Shown here one piece after another: positions 327-6,987 of a stretch of 44,451 bases of DNA. Positions within the stretch are counted from its first letter, which is position 1. Every line of letters begins with the position of its first letter. The notes beneath the pieces were generated by a model. It made no database searches and had not been told where the DNA came from. It saw only the letters and a list, made by a program, of their open reading frames with translations. The position numbers were made by a program, and so were the translations under genes. Source of the DNA: Methylomonas koyamae (GTDB taxonomy: Bacteria > Pseudomonadota > Gammaproteobacteria > Methylococcales > Methylomonadaceae). The DNA lies in NCBI RefSeq assembly GCF_001644025.1, contig NZ_LUUK01000233.1, forward strand, positions 1-44,451, given 5' to 3'.

Positions 327-1979
327 CTAAAAACTACGTTTGGCGCATTGCAGCTTCTTCAGGACGGCCGCCAAGCGGTCGATTTCTTCGTAGGTGTTGT
401 AAAACGCCAGCGACGGCCGTACCGTGGCTTCCAAGCCAAAGCGACGCAGGATGGGCTGCGCGCAATGGTGGCCGGAACGGACCGCGATGCCGGCTTCGTT
501 CAGTGCCTTACCGACATCCTGGGTGGAGTGCCCCGCCATCACGAAGGACAGCACACTGGTTTTGTCTGGCGCGGTGCCGATCAGACGCACACCGGGGATC
601 GCGCGCAAAATGTGCATGCCGTATTCCAGCAACTCGTGTTCGTAGCGGGCGACGTTTTCGATGCCGATCCGACTCAGATACTCCAACGCCGCCCCCAAGC
701 CCACCGCATCGGCGATATTGCCGGTGCCGGCTTCGAATTTGGCAGGCGCCGGTTGATACACGGTTTTCTCGAACGTAACGTCTTCGATCATGTTACCGCC
801 GCCTTGCCAAGGCTGGGTGATTGCCAGCAGTTCCGGCTTGCCGTACAACACGCCGATACCGGTCGGGCCGAAAATCTTGTGTCCGGAAAACACCAACCAA
901 TCGCAATCCAGGCTTTGCACATCCACCCGCAAATGCGACACCGATTGCGCGCCGTCCAACAACACCTTGGCGCCGGCCTGGTGAGCCAGCGCTATCATCT
1001 CCGCCGCCGGCGTCACGGTACCCAAGGCATTGGACACCTGGGTAAACGATACCAGCTTGGTTTTGGCATTCAGCAGTTTTTGGTACTCGGCCAGAATCAC
1101 CTGACCGTCGTCGTCGACCGGAATCACCCGCAAGAGCGCCCCGGTTTCCCGGCACAACTGCTGCCAAGGCACGATGTTGGCGTGATGCTCCAGCCAACTG
1201 ATGACGATTTCGTCGCCTTCGCCGATAAATTGCCGACCCCAACTTTGCGCGACCAAATTGATCGCCTCGGTAGCACCGCGCACGAACACGATATCGTCAG
1301 CCGACGACGCGTTAATGAACCCCGCCACGGTAGCGCGCGCGCCTTCGTAGGCGTCGGTGGCGCGCGCCGCCAGTTCGTGGGCGGCCCGGTGGATATTGGA
1401 GTTCTCATGACGATAAAACTCAGATATCCGATCGATGACGCACTGCGGTTTTTGGGTGGTCGCGGCGTTGTCCAACCAAGCCAACGGATAGCCGTTGACC
1501 CGCTCTTCCAGAATCGGAAAGTCGCGGCGCACCGCGTTCACGTCGAACGGCGGATGCGCCGAACCCAGGCCGGGAATTTGCGCGGCACGAGCTAGGCCGG
1601 ACAGTTCATTGAGAAAATAAAACGGCGCGCTACCGGCACCGGCACCTGGCCCGGCTGGCGGCCGACTACTGGTGTCCACCAACCGCTGCAACTCCGACAA
1701 GCCCGGCAAACCGGCACTCGGTCCGGCCAGACCGGCGACGGCACTGCTATCGATACCCGGCCGATTCGCGAAACCGTTAGGCACCGCGTGATACGGCACC
1801 GAACTCGCCGCCGAGGCCGGTACGTTGTCGATGGCTTGACCATCGCCGGTCGGCATATCGCTGTAGTACAGGTTGGCCAAGCGGCTTAATTCGGCGGTGT
1901 CCGGCAAACCAGCCGGCACCGTACCGCCGCTCAGCGCTTGTTGAGCGAGCCCGGCCAGATCCGGATTAGGCGTAGTCAT
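327..1979 (-). CDS. cyD: Encapsulin-associated cysteine desulfurase (CyD, SufS-type)
   Basis: This is a PLP-dependent cysteine desulfurase that removes sulfur from L-cysteine as an enzyme-bound persulfide. The catalytic part (about residues 145-550) is SufS-like: the PLP lysine is K368 in SGHKIFGP and the persulfide cysteine is C506 in RSGHHCAQP. About 145 extra residues precede it. They are Pro/Gly/Ala-rich and carry short repeated Leu motifs (PDLAGLAQQAL, AELSRLANLYY, GLSELQRLVDT, NELSGLARAAQ). Family 2A encapsulin cargo enzymes carry such disordered N-terminal loading domains. The ATG lies 14 bp inside the end of the shell gene, which suggests translational coupling. The enzyme probably acts inside the shell and supplies sulfur for storage. 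The fold is certain and cargo status is very likely from context. Confidence 0.93.
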   Translation of the reverse strand: MTTPNPDLAGLAQQALSGGTVPAGLPDTAELSRLANLYYSDMPTGDGQAIDNVPASAASSVPYHAVPNGFANRPGIDSSAVAGLAGPSAGLPGLSELQRLVDTSSRPPAGPGAGAGSAPFYFLNELSGLARAAQIPGLGSAHPPFDVNAVRRDFPILEERVNGYPLAWLDNAATTQKPQCVIDRISEFYRHENSNIHRAAHELAARATDAYEGARATVAGFINASSADDIVFVRGATEAINLVAQSWGRQFIGEGDEIVISWLEHHANIVPWQQLCRETGALLRVIPVDDDGQVILAEYQKLLNAKTKLVSFTQVSNALGTVTPAAEMIALAHQAGAKVLLDGAQSVSHLRVDVQSLDCDWLVFSGHKIFGPTGIGVLYGKPELLAITQPWQGGGNMIEDVTFEKTVYQPAPAKFEAGTGNIADAVGLGAALEYLSRIGIENVARYEHELLEYGMHILRAIPGVRLIGTAPDKTSVLSFVMAGHSTQDVGKALNEAGIAVRSGHHCAQPILRRFGLEATVRPSLAFYNTYEEIDRLAAVLKKLQCAKRSF

Positions 1980-2883
1980 AGTAATTGTCCACTTCGACGT
2001 TTTCGAGTACGCCGATCGCGTCGTCGGTCAGTATCGCCAGCGAGCAATACAACGAGACCAAATAGGAAGCGATAGCTTTGTGGTTAATGCCCATGAAACG
2101 CACCGACAGTCCCATGCTAAGTTCGTCGGTCAGGTTTGGTTGATACAAACCGACCACGCCTTGCCGGCTTTCACCGGTGCGTAGCAGTAGTATGTTGGTT
2201 TTGCCGTTGACGATTTTCAGCTTGTCGGTCGGGATCAAAGGCAATCCGCGCCAAGTGATGAATTGCGAACCGAACAAGGACAAGGTCGGCGGCGGCGTGC
2301 CGCGGCGGGTGGCTTCGCGGCCGAAGGCTGCAATCGCCCGCGGGTGGGCTAGGAAGAAGCCCGGCTCTTTCCAGACTCGGGCGATCAGTTCGTCCAAGTC
2401 GTCCGGCGTCGGCGAACCTTTGCGGGTCTTGACTTTTTGCGATTCGATGACGTTGTTCAGCAAACCGTATTCGGTATTGTTGATCAGCTCGCTTTCCTGA
2501 CGCTCTTTGACGGTTTCGATGGTCAGCCGCAATTGCTCATGAATTTGGTTGTGCGGGCTGCTGTATAAATCGGCGACGCGGGTATGTACGTCCAAGACGG
2601 TGTTGACCGCATTCAGGCGGTATTCGCGGCCCCATTCTTCGTAATCGACGAAGGTTTGCGGCAGCACTTTCTCGTCCAGACTTGAGCAATCGACGGCGAT
2701 GCTGGTCTCGCTTTTGACTTTGTTGACCCGGTAAATACCCGCTTCGACCGGGATCCAAGGCAGCAGATGAACCAGCCAACGCGGCGTGATCGTGCCCATC
2801 ATCGGCACGGTTTTGGTCGCATTGGATAAAGTGCGCGCGGCGACGTCGCCTAACGCGGTATGGGCTTGATGAATGTCCGACAT
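1966..2883 (-). CDS. srpI: Family 2A encapsulin shell protein (SrpI-like)
   Basis: This 305-aa protein of the HK97 fold assembles into a hollow protein nanocompartment; this subfamily packages cysteine desulfurase. Its length and the tract from MSDIHQAHTALGDVAARTL through PRWLVHLLPWIPVEAG to the C-terminal LVSLYCSLAILTDDAIGV match SrpI-type shells as I know them. The start chosen at 2883 has a good AAGGGA ribosome-binding site 5 nt upstream. A longer in-frame extension would run back through the leader hairpins and is unlikely to be translated. The gene has its own promoter and terminator-type leader and is followed, with overlap, by cyD. Together with cysK and cysE just upstream this forms a sulfur or cysteine storage cluster. 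Confidence 0.93.
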   Translation of the reverse strand: MSDIHQAHTALGDVAARTLSNATKTVPMMGTITPRWLVHLLPWIPVEAGIYRVNKVKSETSIAVDCSSLDEKVLPQTFVDYEEWGREYRLNAVNTVLDVHTRVADLYSSPHNQIHEQLRLTIETVKERQESELINNTEYGLLNNVIESQKVKTRKGSPTPDDLDELIARVWKEPGFFLAHPRAIAAFGREATRRGTPPPTLSLFGSQFITWRGLPLIPTDKLKIVNGKTNILLLRTGESRQGVVGLYQPNLTDELSMGLSVRFMGINHKAIASYLVSLYCSLAILTDDAIGVLENVEVDNYYDYA

Positions 2884-2954
2884 AAGTGTCCCTTGCAGTT
2901 CTGGTTGATGACTTGGAATGCGTCTATCGCTCGGGCCGTATTTCCATCGGGCAT

Positions 2955-3018
2955 AAAAAAAGCCAATGGCTCTGACGAGCGCATTGGCTTCCGGCGATCC
3001 GGTCAGCGATTGACTTAG
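2955..3018 (-). promoter_or_regulatory. Structured leader RNA with intrinsic terminator, copy A (srpI)
   Basis: The 5' leader of srpI starts with AAGTCA almost at the predicted +1. It can fold into GUCA-loop-UGAC, then CCGG-AUCG-CCGG, then a strong hairpin (AGCCAAUG paired with CAUUGGCU) followed by seven U. About 71 nt separate the U-run from the srpI start codon. The same arrangement, with block CGCTGACCGGAYCGCCGGA and compensating changes in the terminator stem, precedes cysK. I read it as a transcription attenuator or small riboswitch-like element; the ligand is unknown and I do not recognise the family. Confidence 0.7.
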
Positions 3019-3022
3019 ATTC

Positions 3023-3052
3023 AAGATACCGATAGCAGACTAAACCTGTCAA
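3023..3052 (-). promoter_or_regulatory. Sigma70 promoter of srpI-cyD
   Basis: On the minus strand there is a perfect -35 TTGACA (3047-3052), an 18-nt spacer and a -10 TATCTT (3023-3028). Transcription would start near 3016, at the first bases of the conserved leader. Confidence 0.75.
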
Positions 3053-3344
3053 TACCGGCATGTCGGCGGCGGAATTTGCTTATGTCTATTCGCGACATGA
3101 ATATCTAAAAATATCGTATACCTCGATTCCAACGGCAACTCGGCAACAAAAGATCCAATCTAAGCCATTGTTACTAATCACTTATTTTTTAGCCGCGCCT
3201 ACTCCGCGTTCTACGACATCGGGCTGTATGATATTTTTCGAAGAAAGTTTGGTTGGCGTATCGGCCGTTCTGACAACTCCCCGACCTAGACCGGGACAAG
3301 GTCAAAATATTTCACTGAAATTTCAAGGCGTTGAACGTATTCAT
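3053..3344. other. Intergenic stretch between cysE and the srpI promoter
   Basis: I see no convincing gene or RNA in this AT-richer interval. A short imperfect inverted repeat, CCCGGTCTAGGTCGGG on the minus strand (near 3281-3297), lies downstream of cysE but has no U-run, so it is a poor intrinsic terminator. Confidence 0.4.
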
Positions 3345-4283
3345 TCAAATCCCTGCGCCGGACTCGTACATTTCGCTACGGACTTGCGCCTGACTGACCT
3401 GACTGCCCGGCGGAACGCTGTGCGTCAACCAGACATTCCCGCCTATCGTCGAACCCCGGCCTATCGTGATTCGCCCCAAAATGGTCGCGCCGGCGTAAAT
3501 CACCACATCGTCCTCGACGATAGGATGGCGGGCGTTACCCTTGACCAATAGGCCGTTTTCGTCCTTGGCAAAGCGCTTGGCCCCCAACGTGACGGCCTGG
3601 TACAAGCGCACGCGCCGACCGATGATCGCGGTTTCGCCAATCACGACGCCGGTACCGTGATCGATAAAAAAACTGTCGGCGATTCGCGCGCCGGGATGAA
3701 TATCGATGCCGGTGGCCGAATGCGCGATTTCGCTGACGATGCGCGCCACCAACGGTAAGCCCAAACCGTATAACAGATGGGCCACCCGGTGGTGTATCAC
3801 GGCGGTGATGCCGGGATAACAGGCCAGCACTTCGTCGGGACAACGGGCCGCCGGATCGCCTTCGTAGGCGGCGCGGATGTCGCTGTCGATCAACAGTCGG
3901 ACGCCGGGCAGTTTGGCCGCAAACTCACGGGTCAGCTCGCTTGCCCGCCGCCAGACGTCGATGGTTTCGCCGTTTTGCTCGGCGACGAATTGCAGTTCCA
4001 ACGCAATCTGCCGGCTTAAATCCCGTAGCAGACTGTCCAGGGTCTGACCGACGAAATAATCGATGCCTTCGTCGGTCAGATCCGGGCGGCCGAGACGGTT
4101 GGGGAACAAGACCGCCCCCAATTGTTCGACGATCTGGGCCAACACCTTACGGGCCGGCAATTTCGGCGGATGTTCGCGGCGATGGCGTTCCTCGAGCGAA
4201 TGCAAGCGTATCGCCCGCAGTTCCGCGACCAGATCATCTATTCCCCAAAAGGGAGACGCAATCGCCAACGCCGCTTCGTTCAT
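3345..4283 (-). CDS. cysE: Serine O-acetyltransferase (EpsC/CysE type)
   Basis: This enzyme transfers acetyl from acetyl-CoA to L-serine, giving O-acetylserine, the substrate of the adjacent cysteine synthase. The protein is 312 aa. An N-terminal helical half (about 1-190) is followed by left-handed beta-helix hexapeptide repeats (about 190-305) with the active-site tract [20 protein letters not shown] and [11 protein letters not shown]. The long helical N-terminus resembles the EpsC-type subgroup more than short E. coli-like CysE. The start codon overlaps the cysK stop by 4 bp (ATGA), so the two are co-translated. The pair makes cysteine, which CyD can then desulfurate. Confidence 0.93.
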
Positions 4284-5257
4284 AGCGCCGAGCCTTGGGC
4301 GTCGAACAAACCTTCGAACAGCGCCGAACTCAGATAGCGTTCACCGGAATCCGGCAATACCACGACAATGGTCTTGCCGACGTTTTCCGGCTGCTTGGCG
4401 AGTCTGACCGCCGCCGCCACCGCCGCCCCGCAGGAAATGCCGGCCAAAATGCCCTCCTCCCTGGCCAAGCGGCGCGCGTAGTCGATGGCTTCGTCATTGC
4501 TGACTAGTTCAATCTGATCCACCAACGATAAGTCCAAAACGTCCGGCACGAATCCGGCGCCTATGCCCTGGATTTTGTGTGGTGCCGGTTGCAATTCCTG
4601 TCCGGCGCGGAATTGGGTCAGAATGGGACTGGCTTCCGGCTCGACGGCCACGGTATGGATGGGCTTGCCCTGCTTTAACTTAATGTAGCGCGACACGCCA
4701 GTAATCGTGCCGCCGGTACCGACGCCGGATACGAAAATGTCGATCGCGCCGTCGCTGTCGTTCCAGATTTCCGGACCGGTGGTCAGTTCGTGGATTTCGG
4801 GATTGGCGGGGTTTTTAAACTGTTGCAACAGCACATAACGTTCGGGTTCGGACGCGGCGATTTCTTCGGCCTTGGCGATCGCGCCTTTCATGCCTTTGGC
4901 GCCTTCGGTCAAAATCAGTTTGGCGCCGTAGGCCACCAGCAATTTGCGGCGTTCCAGACTCATGGTTTCCGGCATCGTCAACGTCAACGGAATGCCGCGC
5001 GCCGCCGCGACGAAGGCCAGCGCGATACCGGTGTTGCCGCTGGTCGGTTCGATGATTTCCTTACCTGGCCCCAAAACGCCGCGGCGCTGAGCGTCGTTAA
5101 TCATCGCCGCGCCGATCCGGCATTTCACCGAATAAGCCGGGTTGCGACCTTCGACCTTAGCCAGCAAGGTCACCGGCGCGCCGTCGGCGATGCGGTTCAA
5201 ACGCACCAACGGCGTGTTGCCGATGGACTGCGAGTTGTCGGGATACCAATGTGCCAT
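4280..5257 (-). CDS. cysK: Cysteine synthase (O-acetylserine sulfhydrylase)
   Basis: This PLP enzyme condenses O-acetylserine with sulfide to give L-cysteine. Of its 325 residues, K45 in [11 protein letters not shown] is the PLP lysine. [12 protein letters not shown] is the substrate-binding loop, [14 protein letters not shown] binds the PLP phosphate and [13 protein letters not shown] is the usual C-terminal motif. The start at 5257 has an AAGGA site 7 nt upstream, and the first residues [20 protein letters not shown] fit the family. It is the first gene after leader copy B, which it shares in kind with srpI, and it overlaps cysE. This implies common control of cysteine synthesis and the encapsulin. 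Confidence 0.95.
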
Positions 5258-5282
5258 GTTTAAATCCTTGAAATTTAGATAC

Positions 5283-5350
5283 AAAAAAGCCAGCGGCCCC
5301 GTGCGGGACGCACTGGCTTCCGGCGGTCCGGTCAGCGTAACGTGACTTGC
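5283..5350 (-). promoter_or_regulatory. Structured leader RNA with intrinsic terminator, copy B (cysK)
   Basis: This second copy of the srpI leader precedes cysK. It shows AAGTCA, a GUCA/UGAC hairpin with a different loop, CCGG-ACCG-CCGG, and a terminator stem AGCCAGUG with CGCUGGCU followed by six U. Relative to copy A, an A-U pair in the terminator stem is replaced by G-C, so pairing is kept while sequence changes. About 25 nt separate the U-run from the cysK start. An alternative short stem GUGCG/CGCAC inside the terminator arm could compete with the outer helix. Confidence 0.7.
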
Positions 5351-5355
5351 CGGTT

Positions 5356-5385
5356 AACTTAAGGCGGCGGGCAACAGGTTGTCAA
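5356..5385 (-). promoter_or_regulatory. Sigma70 promoter of cysK-cysE
   Basis: The minus strand has TTGACA (5380-5385), an 18-nt spacer and TAAGTT (5356-5361). The geometry matches the srpI promoter, and again the start point falls at the beginning of the conserved leader. Confidence 0.65.
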
Positions 5386-5469
5386 GAAAAATTGCTAATA
5401 AAAACCGCCGCTTATCGAATATTTCGATGATATGTTCTGATTTTGGCATGAAGCGGCGCCGCGATTATC

Positions 5470-6987
5470 CTATTTTCGGGTGTAGCGATGTTTGACGCCG
5501 GCCGGGAAATACTCGGGATCGGCGAAACGCTGCAAGGTCACCTTCGGGGTTTGCCGTTCCACCGGCGTGTAGTGGGCAAATTCGCTGTTGAGCCGCAATA
5601 GCTGGACTTTGATCGATTCGGCGACCCGCCCCGCATCAACGTGTTCGGGATCGACATCCGGCAAGACTTCCACCGCGACGTGCAACTCGCTATCGCCGGC
5701 GACGTTTTCCCTGACTTGCAACACAAATTTGCCGGTCAACCAGCCGGTCAACTCCGGTTGTTCCAATCCTACCGTGACATTCTCCGGATAAATATTGGCG
5801 CCGTAATAGGACACCGTGAAATCCGCCCGGCCGAACACGAACACGAACGGCAGCTCGCGCGGTTTAAAATCGCTAGGCAAGCCCAGATCGGTCACCGATT
5901 CGATACCGGCGGCACGCAAGCGCTCCCAGATTTGCCGATACGGGATGACGCCGCCTTTGTCGGCGATGTGGTAGCGCACCAGCGGCACGCTGTTCTCGCC
6001 CGATACCACCAAGGTATCGGCTTCGACTTCGAAGAAGCGGCTCGCCGGGTCGTATTGCACCAGCGTCGGCAAGCGCGACTCGCCGAACCATGCGCGGGCC
6101 TCGTCGGGATGACCGGCCAACCAGCGCCGAATCGCGATGCTCAGCGGTGTTTCGTTGCCCAACACCCCGCCGTCGGCGGTACCGTACAGCGACGCCGAAT
6201 CGAATTCCGCTCGCTCGGCACCGATGCGTTCGCCGACCAAGGCCCGCCATTCCTCGCTAAACACCTCGCCGGCAAACACCAATTTTGGGTTGAAGTCCGA
6301 CCAAACGATGCCCTCGGCGCTACCGGCATCGATAACATCCTTGATGAAAGGCGGATAACCCAATAACACGGTTTGCTCGAATTGCGGCGCCAGCTCGCGC
6401 ACCACCCGAAAGATTTCGGCCTTGTTGTTACCCGGCGTCGCGACCATTATCGGGTAGCCTTTGCGCGCCAAATGCCAGCAGCATGAGGTCGTGAATAAAC
6501 CGCCAACCCAGTTGCCCAGCGCAAAACACACCACGGCCAGGGTCGTACGGCGATCGGCGGCGAAGCTGTCCTTGAAGACCTGCTCGAAACGCAGGGCCAC
6601 ATCCAATTCGTCAGCGGCGGAGCGCGGCCAGAACGTCGGCTGGCCGGTCGAACCGGAAGATACCGCGACCCGGTCGGCTCCGACCAAACTGCCGCCGAAG
6701 CAACGTTGAGCCAGCGGGTAGGCCCGCATGTAATCTTGTTTGCTCATCAACGGTAAGCGGGAGTATTCGGCATAGTCGACCACTTGCTCGGGGCTGACGC
6801 CGCGCTCGGCCAGAAACTGGCGGTAGGCCGGCACTTCGGCGGCGCAACGCCGAAACAGCGCCAGCAATTTCTCCTCGGGCTTGACGTCTTGCCCGCCCAA
6901 CAAATCGTCCAGCGGCGTGGTCAGGAAACGCTGAAAAACGGCATTTAAGTCGGTCATCGTCGGATTGCTCAATTCGTGGGTGGTCAT
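5470..6987 (-). CDS. Phenylacetate-CoA ligase-like adenylate-forming enzyme
   Basis: This 505-aa protein belongs to the PaaK-like branch of the acyl-adenylate superfamily, which activates carboxylic acids with ATP, usually to CoA thioesters. Visible features are the P-loop-like VAVSSGSTGQPTFWPRS (about residues 108-124), a YGTADGG tract (about 269) and a C-terminal domain around FVFGRADFTVSYYGANIYPENV, where canonical PaaK has a similar FGRxDD-type turn. The substrate cannot be told from sequence. It lies upstream of cysK on the same strand but cysK has its own promoter, so a link to sulfur metabolism is only positional. The start is uncertain: Met1 (6987) or Met11 (6957), neither with a clear ribosome-binding site. 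Confidence 0.75.
   Translation of the reverse strand: MTTHELSNPTMTDLNAVFQRFLTTPLDDLLGGQDVKPEEKLLALFRRCAAEVPAYRQFLAERGVSPEQVVDYAEYSRLPLMSKQDYMRAYPLAQRCFGGSLVGADRVAVSSGSTGQPTFWPRSAADELDVALRFEQVFKDSFAADRRTTLAVVCFALGNWVGGLFTTSCCWHLARKGYPIMVATPGNNKAEIFRVVRELAPQFEQTVLLGYPPFIKDVIDAGSAEGIVWSDFNPKLVFAGEVFSEEWRALVGERIGAERAEFDSASLYGTADGGVLGNETPLSIAIRRWLAGHPDEARAWFGESRLPTLVQYDPASRFFEVEADTLVVSGENSVPLVRYHIADKGGVIPYRQIWERLRAAGIESVTDLGLPSDFKPRELPFVFVFGRADFTVSYYGANIYPENVTVGLEQPELTGWLTGKFVLQVRENVAGDSELHVAVEVLPDVDPEHVDAGRVAESIKVQLLRLNSEFAHYTPVERQTPKVTLQRFADPEYFPAGVKHRYTRK

Follow-up and report, generated by a model that had tools for sequence, protein, structure and literature searches.

A conserved RNA hairpin in the cysK-cysE and encapsulin leaders of Methylomonas koyamae, with OscA as its candidate reader

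OscA is a sulfur starvation response protein that NCBIfam (NF033785) defines within the Pfam family DUF2292 (PF10055), also labelled YezD. The Pseudomonas aeruginosa gene PA0284, which we take to be oscA, is placed upstream of sbp in passages of two papers. The gene is reported to share a transcript with cysP and to have a part in the sulphur starvation response of P. corrugata (passages and a cited title in PMC3596284), and both genes are reported as strongly down in a gacS mutant of Pseudomonas protegens (PMC12892942). Within the available passages of open-licence PubMed Central (PMC) papers, we found neither an RNA role for OscA, YezD or DUF2292 nor a described leader of the present kind in front of cysK or an encapsulin gene. 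The DNA analyzed here is a stretch of 44,451 nucleotides (nt) from the gammaproteobacterium Methylomonas koyamae (the window; positions 1 to 44,451 of contig NZ_LUUK01000233.1, assembly GCF_001644025.1), in which two leaders share a small hairpin and a terminator, one preceding the cysteine synthesis genes cysK-cysE and the other the encapsulin operon srpI-cyD. We propose, with about an even chance of being right, that these leaders each represent one conserved RNA element (the oscA hairpin) of a sulfur starvation regulon, and that they function as antitermination leaders with OscA as the likeliest binder. Both the RNA element and the evidence tying it to OscA are new in this work.

Both leaders lie on the minus strand, at 5385-5283 upstream of cysK-cysE (5257-3345) and at 3052-2955 upstream of srpI-cyD (2883-327); an initial annotation of this DNA had pointed to the two sites and to the genes behind them, and NCBIfam models now name those genes accordingly. 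Common to the two leaders are CGCTGACCGGAYCGCCGGAAGCCARTGCG, a TTGACA box and an intrinsic terminator. The TTGACA-N18 promoter of that annotation stands in part: the box is present at both sites and has a suitable partner before srpI (Table 1), but no -10 partner passed the promoter scan in the cysK leader. Of 46 terminator-type leaders, 28 have TTGACA no more than 70 nt upstream. The proposed transcript start at AAGUCA was not confirmed as a conserved part. A GUCA/UGAC hairpin, also put forward as conserved, is rejected as part of the element, being local to 3 of the 46 leaders (the two window copies and L013); it appears in the minimum-energy fold of the srpI leader and not in that of the cysK leader. 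The CCGG-AYCG-CCGG hairpin and the terminator, by comparison, are present in both leaders and recur in relatives, as does the compensating A-U to G-C change noticed in the terminator stem.

The conserved unit reads GCU-[GA]-CCGG-N4-CCGG-[A]-AGC and is followed directly by the terminator GCCAGUG...CACUGGCUUUUUU. Its core of about 21 nt is built from a 4-bp CYRG/CYRG stem with a variable loop of four bases, an internal loop that is asymmetric (5' GA / 3' A) and a lower stem that covaries. The 3' arm of this lower stem doubles, in the window leaders, as the base of the intrinsic terminator, and because the nucleotides are shared the two structures are mutually exclusive. When the competing folds were computed for six leaders, the terminator fold was favored over the full-hairpin fold by 5.1 kcal/mol in five and 6.9 kcal/mol in one, so that in both its shared nucleotides and its competing folds the element shows the overlap with, and exclusion of, a terminator that characterizes a ribonucleic antiterminator (RAT). 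Each window leader folds better than 200/200 dinucleotide shuffles, largely because of the terminator. Taken together, the data support a structured terminator leader that ties cysteine synthesis to the encapsulin/cysteine desulfurase operon.

Covariation was scored separately for the two structures. In the terminator stem together with the apical stem, 97.2% of cells are paired, six pairs have both partners changed and covariation scores 0.259 vs 0.152, with none of 500 shuffles as good; at pair 26/62, 21 of the 28 rows have GC and the other 7 have AU. In an alignment of 70 hairpins (A5), 84.4% of cells are paired, 6 of 9 pairs have both partners changed and covariation scores 0.201 vs 0.123, again matched by 0/500 shuffles. 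The true hairpin register beats every slid register on cells paired and on score, while one slid register ties it on changed cells (48) and tops it on pair types (17 vs 15). The 70 rows were taken from 85 collected; left out were nine near-duplicates (L010, L014, L016, L017, L027, L030, L035, L079 and L113) and six supposed chance matches (L036 reverse strand, L068 3188, L070 6147, L093 2380, L143 2194 and L200), whose lower-stem pairing (0,0,0,0,0,1) was already known when they were excluded. Five further matches judged by eye to be chance (L007, L029, L033, L074 and L081) never entered the collection. The constant bases A10, C11, C12, G14, C19, G21, G22 and A23 of A5 were required by the search pattern, and the lower stem was unconstrained. 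Tested alone on all 85 rows, the lower stem pairs better than every one of 5000 shuffles, and the result is likewise 0/5000 for the 47 rows whose 3' arm is other than AGCC/GGCC. The apical stem changes in step in distant copies, being CCAG/CUGG in L122, L124, L127 and L129 and CUGG/CCAG in L202 and L204. The covarying lower stem and these paired apical changes indicate that the element, as judged by comparative sequence analysis, is an RNA hairpin rather than a DNA site.

The element is not confined to the source genome, in agreement with what had been expected. A 21-mer search with up to 3 mismatches found three places in the whole genome (both leaders and one on contig C183) and one in the reversed control. 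The 19-mer TGACCGGANCGCCGGAAGC, at up to 1 mismatch in 61 genomes (the source genome and 60 relatives), was found at 40 places in 25 genomes, and at least three of these places look like chance sites lacking a terminator; the reversed control gave one, and covariance-model hits were also obtained in the relatives. Scanning genome contigs with YTGACCGGANCRCCGGAAGYYA returned 43 stretches, chiefly from Methylococcales and including two from Methylobacillus, one from a metagenome-assembled genome (MAG) of Methylophilaceae and four Rheinheimera records. The strict pattern was found in 3 of 369 genomes sampled evenly from the class. No match to Rfam (release 15, gathering score) was found in the window or in 12 loci, and a lax search of 2900-5450 gave five weak matches, none on the leaders; membership in an Rfam family, riboswitches and T-boxes included, is thus rejected, and the absence of a named family, for which an Rfam match had been set beforehand as the refutation, holds.

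The genes behind the element point to sulfur metabolism and to one neighbor in particular. Among 81 hits, a tally in which some places are counted twice since several loci hold the same place, the downstream gene is cysK in 23, a sigma-54 activator in 18, srpI in 11, a Porin_O_P-type porin in 8, an Alginate_exp-type porin in 4 and cysE-like in 4 (a label assigned by eye; for one of these proteins, residues 1 to 200 were without a Pfam match). The rest are single or in small groups, for example an OsmC-like gene and, in Rheinheimera, a porin and a TonB receptor; the window's own srpI copy falls among this rest because the wrong frame was picked automatically. A small DUF2292 protein is encoded upstream of 14 hits. 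Copies without a terminator, often in tandem, have oscA (DUF2292/YezD) on one side and genes of the porin, sulfate-transport or TonB kind on the other; the porin-type copies have no T6 run, and paired hairpins occur in L003, L036 and L111-L114.

Some features of these loci were noticed in passing. The DUF2292-hairpin-porin cluster of L063 is immediately preceded by a gene for an Rrf2-type regulator (PF02082), which may be the operon's transcription factor. In L022 (208-300) the hairpin is followed by a short GTG frame whose TGA overlaps the porin ATG, as read by eye, a possible case of translational coupling. In L121, L122, L124, L129 and L130, by eye, CCGGAGG stands at the foot of the hairpin after DUF2292 with a possible start codon within about 10 bases downstream, an arrangement that would suit translational control of the terminator-less copies. 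A relative of the sigma-54 activator (G002:C1:2277444-2278478) lies just upstream of DUF2292 (2278803-2278907) on the same strand, and in some genomes the oscA locus may include this activator. A sigma-54 promoter before oscA was rejected as a general feature, being present with at most 1 mismatch in only 2 of 30 loci.

The association with oscA in cis was measured starting from the protein. DUF2292 is present in 12 of the 369 class-sample genomes, and in all 12 a hairpin follows the gene within 200 nt, where shuffles expect 0.08; nine of the 12 had no strict pattern match. In a draw of 398 genomes from the phylum, 25 contained DUF2292, two of them already counted, and 13 of the remaining 23 have the hairpin within the same distance (expected 0.16). 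These 13 include L210 and L219, of a family outside the class and with tandem hairpins, as well as L220 and L221, which are uncertain although counted: in L220-L223 the gene end was taken from poor automatic matches (14-15 substitutions), and only L222, where the hairpin lies between DUF2292 and a TonB-receptor-like gene, was checked by eye. Over the 35 genomes the hairpin is found on the forward strand after DUF2292 in 25 and on the reverse strand in none. Twenty DUF2292 loci from relatives were chosen partly for absence of the strict motif; the gene is followed by a hairpin in 13 of them. In L126 a protein scoring 124.8 bits against the OscA model (cut-off 85) is followed by the hairpin and then by a sulfate-binding-protein gene. 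The protein linked to the element in the source genome scores 57.4 bits against DUF2292 (cut-off 22) and 45.8 bits against the OscA model, under the cut-off. Two loci are unusual: L132 (G039:C1:2403265-2403330) has, near the intact gene, a second DUF2292-like one that is damaged in its C-terminal half but has kept a CYRG hairpin and an altered copy behind it, and in L108 (G046:C1:2326722-2326740) the hairpin lies upstream of DUF2292 on the opposite strand, with none after the gene. One Paenibacillus record carries OscA on a plasmid, in a stretch without annotated features.

The element also follows oscA in trans. With a covariance model built on the terminator-type leader, hits at E < 1e-9 were obtained in 33 of the 61 genomes, that is, in 32 of 39 with DUF2292 and 1 of 22 without it, the sole exception being G030, which is 78% complete. 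Among genomes at least 90% complete the figures are 29/35 and 0/16 (Fisher 1e-8, kinship ignored). In the 369-genome sample, 42 genomes had a hit at E up to 0.01 and only two had strong ones, both with DUF2292. Conversely, 23 hairpin genomes were picked from among the 43 stretches, and DUF2292 is present in 19 of them, compared with 12 of 369 genomes in the class sample; the four exceptions are two probable chance matches (L074 and L081) and two MAGs (L066 and L079). In G022 (99% complete, no DUF2292) the leader before the cysK ortholog (84% identity) has a broken apical stem and no terminator stem, as expected, in this single case, if the leader decays once its reader is lost. Methylobacillus has the leader in trans and no hairpin beside DUF2292.

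In the mechanism that we envisage, the unbound leader RNA would fold into the terminator; the predicted minimum-energy folds of the two window leaders contain no full hairpin, so the hairpin state would need help. A protein that kept the hairpin closed would deprive the terminator of its four lowest pairs, beside the U-tract. Loss of the lowest pairs next to the U-tract of an intrinsic terminator should allow readthrough, and RNA polymerase would then read into cysK-cysE and srpI-cyD; with a positive, starvation-linked binder the genes would be switched on. OscA would be the likeliest such protein, since its gene neighbors the element and the two go together both in cis and in trans. Binding by OscA, antitermination as the sense of control and sulfur starvation as the signal are what we infer from this pattern. 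OscA has about 60 residues, with DUF2292 as its sole domain match, and is predicted with moderate confidence to fold as a helix and a beta-hairpin (predicted local distance difference test, pLDDT, 78.8; predicted template modelling score, pTM, 0.51); no solved structure is related to it by sequence at E up to 1.

A number of points weigh against this interpretation. RNA binding by OscA is a hypothesis drawn from association between sequences, and the OscA model had no significant match among solved structures in fold searches, the second of which aligned 157 chains. The full hairpin is absent from the predicted minimum-energy fold of either window leader and is recognized by comparison, and further pair types are no more frequent than in shuffles for either the terminator stem (255/500) or the hairpin (177/500). 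The leader model was built from 28 sequences, which match by construction, its 1e-9 threshold was chosen after the hits were seen, and the Fisher tests ignore kinship; at E up to 0.01 the hits become 38/39 with and 8/22 without DUF2292, the additions being mostly weak, and within the genus the strong hits are 27/32 and 1/4 (p 0.03). G009, G018 and G046 possess DUF2292 and cysK and have no leader. After DUF2292 the hairpin is missing in 10 of the 23 further genomes (seven of them in family f167), in 7 of the 20 loci from relatives and in 4 of another set of 20 loci. DUF2292 also occurs in Bacillus subtilis (a control genome) and in a Paenibacillus record, and no such hairpin lies beside the gene in Paenibacillus L201, the sole Bacillota gene checked.

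The strongest competing explanation retains the element and the leader logic and has the hairpin read by another factor of the sulfur regulon, with OscA merely a co-regulated neighbor. Such a view draws on the associative nature of every OscA link, on the Rrf2-type gene upstream of DUF2292 in L063 and on the fact that other sulfur regulators keep the same company. It sits poorly with the near absence of strong trans leaders from relatives without DUF2292, where the one exception is an incomplete genome, and with the trans leader of Methylobacillus; we regard it as unlikely. Improbable, in our judgment, are passive hairpins, whether basal-level terminators, structures for intercistronic RNA stability or processing, or short terminated decoy RNAs. 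The many terminator-less copies between oscA and the following gene and the good terminators in which the leaders finish would fit that description, but the GA/A and CYRG bases are conserved beyond the needs of pairing (partly fixed by the search patterns), and this conservation spans copies with and without terminators and unrelated sulfur operons.

The initial annotation favored an attenuator or small riboswitch-like element answering a sulfur signal. The sulfur-linked leader has held up; the metabolite as leading idea is not supported, and a protein, which was one of the options named, now appears the likelier ligand, since a core of about 21 nt with a variable loop, terminator-less and tandem copies and the tracking of oscA all point that way. 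A very small riboswitch for cysteine, O-acetylserine, sulfide or a similar compound could account for a terminator-coupled leader before cysteine and sulfur genes; given a variable apical loop, frequent duplication, a position behind a protein gene and no Rfam riboswitch match, we rate it very improbable. Reading of the GGA by CsrA/RsmA is extremely improbable: GGA does follow the stem in most copies, and the gacS effect on oscA and cysP cited above speaks for it, but the GG belongs to the stem and not to a loop, and CCGGU or CCGGC is found in several copies that come first in a tandem. Hardly credible is an operator in the DNA immediately behind the promoter, as CCGG-N4-CCGG, though palindromic and often close behind TTGACA, always has its GA/A flanks in one orientation, has a lower stem that covaries as RNA and overlaps terminators.

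With OscA retained as the preferred reader, a fuller picture can be drawn and has to be taken as one claim, which we hold tentatively as falling somewhat short of an even chance. OscA would be the earliest recognized example of a new family of small regulators that bind RNA sequence-specifically. Under sulfur starvation it would bind CYRG-N4-CYRG hairpins and activate the operon to which it belongs (porins, sulfate and TonB transport) at a stage later than transcription start. Methanotrophs and methylotrophs would also use it as a trans antiterminator for cysK-cysE, the encapsulin operon and a sigma-54 activator, and this RNA-based sulfur regulon would reach beyond one class of Pseudomonadota. 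If true, this would give a molecular function to a protein known mainly from the sulfur starvation response and chromate resistance, add to the sulfur control of Proteobacteria an RNA switch that a protein reads, explain how one cell couples cysteine synthesis to an encapsulin carrying a cysteine desulfurase, and offer a compact, testable module comprising a hairpin of roughly 21 nt and a protein some 60 residues long.

The features of the two window loci are collected in Table 1. A short way upstream of the cysK leader, 5470-6987 on the minus strand encodes a protein weakly similar to phenylacetate-CoA ligases, below cut-offs.

Table 1. Genes, promoter elements and RNA structures of the two leader loci in the window
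Feature	Position	Strand	Evidence
cysK, cysteine synthase A	4280..5257	-	TIGR01139 453.8 bits, above cut-off
cysE-type serine O-acetyltransferase	3345..4283	-	NF041874 160.5 bits (cut-off 150); TIGR01172 163.5, under cut-off 210.65
srpI, family 2A encapsulin shell protein	1966..2883	-	NF041162 527.7 bits, above cut-off
cyD, cysteine desulfurase, family 2A encapsulin cargo	327..1979	-	NF041166 880.3 bits, above cut-off
TTGACA (-35-like), cysK leader	5380..5385	-	sequence
Promoter-like TTGACA-N18-TATCTT, srpI leader	3023..3052	-	10/12 matches, 18-nt spacer
Hairpin GCU-GA-CCGG-ACCG-CCGG-A-AGC before cysK	5316..5336	-	sequence; R1 match 73.1 bits at 5283-5338; covariation in relatives
Hairpin GCU-GA-CCGG-AUCG-CCGG-A-AGC before srpI	2987..3007	-	sequence; R1 match 68.3 bits at 2956-3009
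Intrinsic terminator, cysK leader, overlapping hairpin 3' arm	5283..5319	-	terminator scan, fold, sequence
Intrinsic terminator, srpI leader, overlapping hairpin 3' arm	2955..2990	-	terminator scan, fold, sequence

Among known systems, the nearest in logic is the RAT of BglG, LicT and SacY, where a protein binds a short hairpin whose bases overlap the 5' arm of an intrinsic terminator, making binding and termination mutually exclusive. The present element differs from it in RNA sequence, in preceding sulfur instead of sugar genes and in its many copies without a terminator, and OscA, a small protein matching DUF2292 alone, is not known to be a CAT-PRD protein. The Guanidine-II (mini-ykkC) riboswitch likewise consists of small, often tandem hairpins, but its family was not matched in Rfam and the apical loop here is variable. 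OscA itself is the closest link by position, its gene adjoining the hairpin in the source genome and in many others, although the papers found, as far as seen, describe no RNA-related function for it and the protein of the source genome scores under the OscA cut-off. For SrpI of Synechococcus elongatus, the accessible part of the report mentions no RNA leader, and a title cited there names transcriptional control by CysR (PMC8049743); what that system has in common with the srpI-cyD operon of the window is an encapsulin shell with a cysteine desulfurase cargo, induced there by sulfur starvation.

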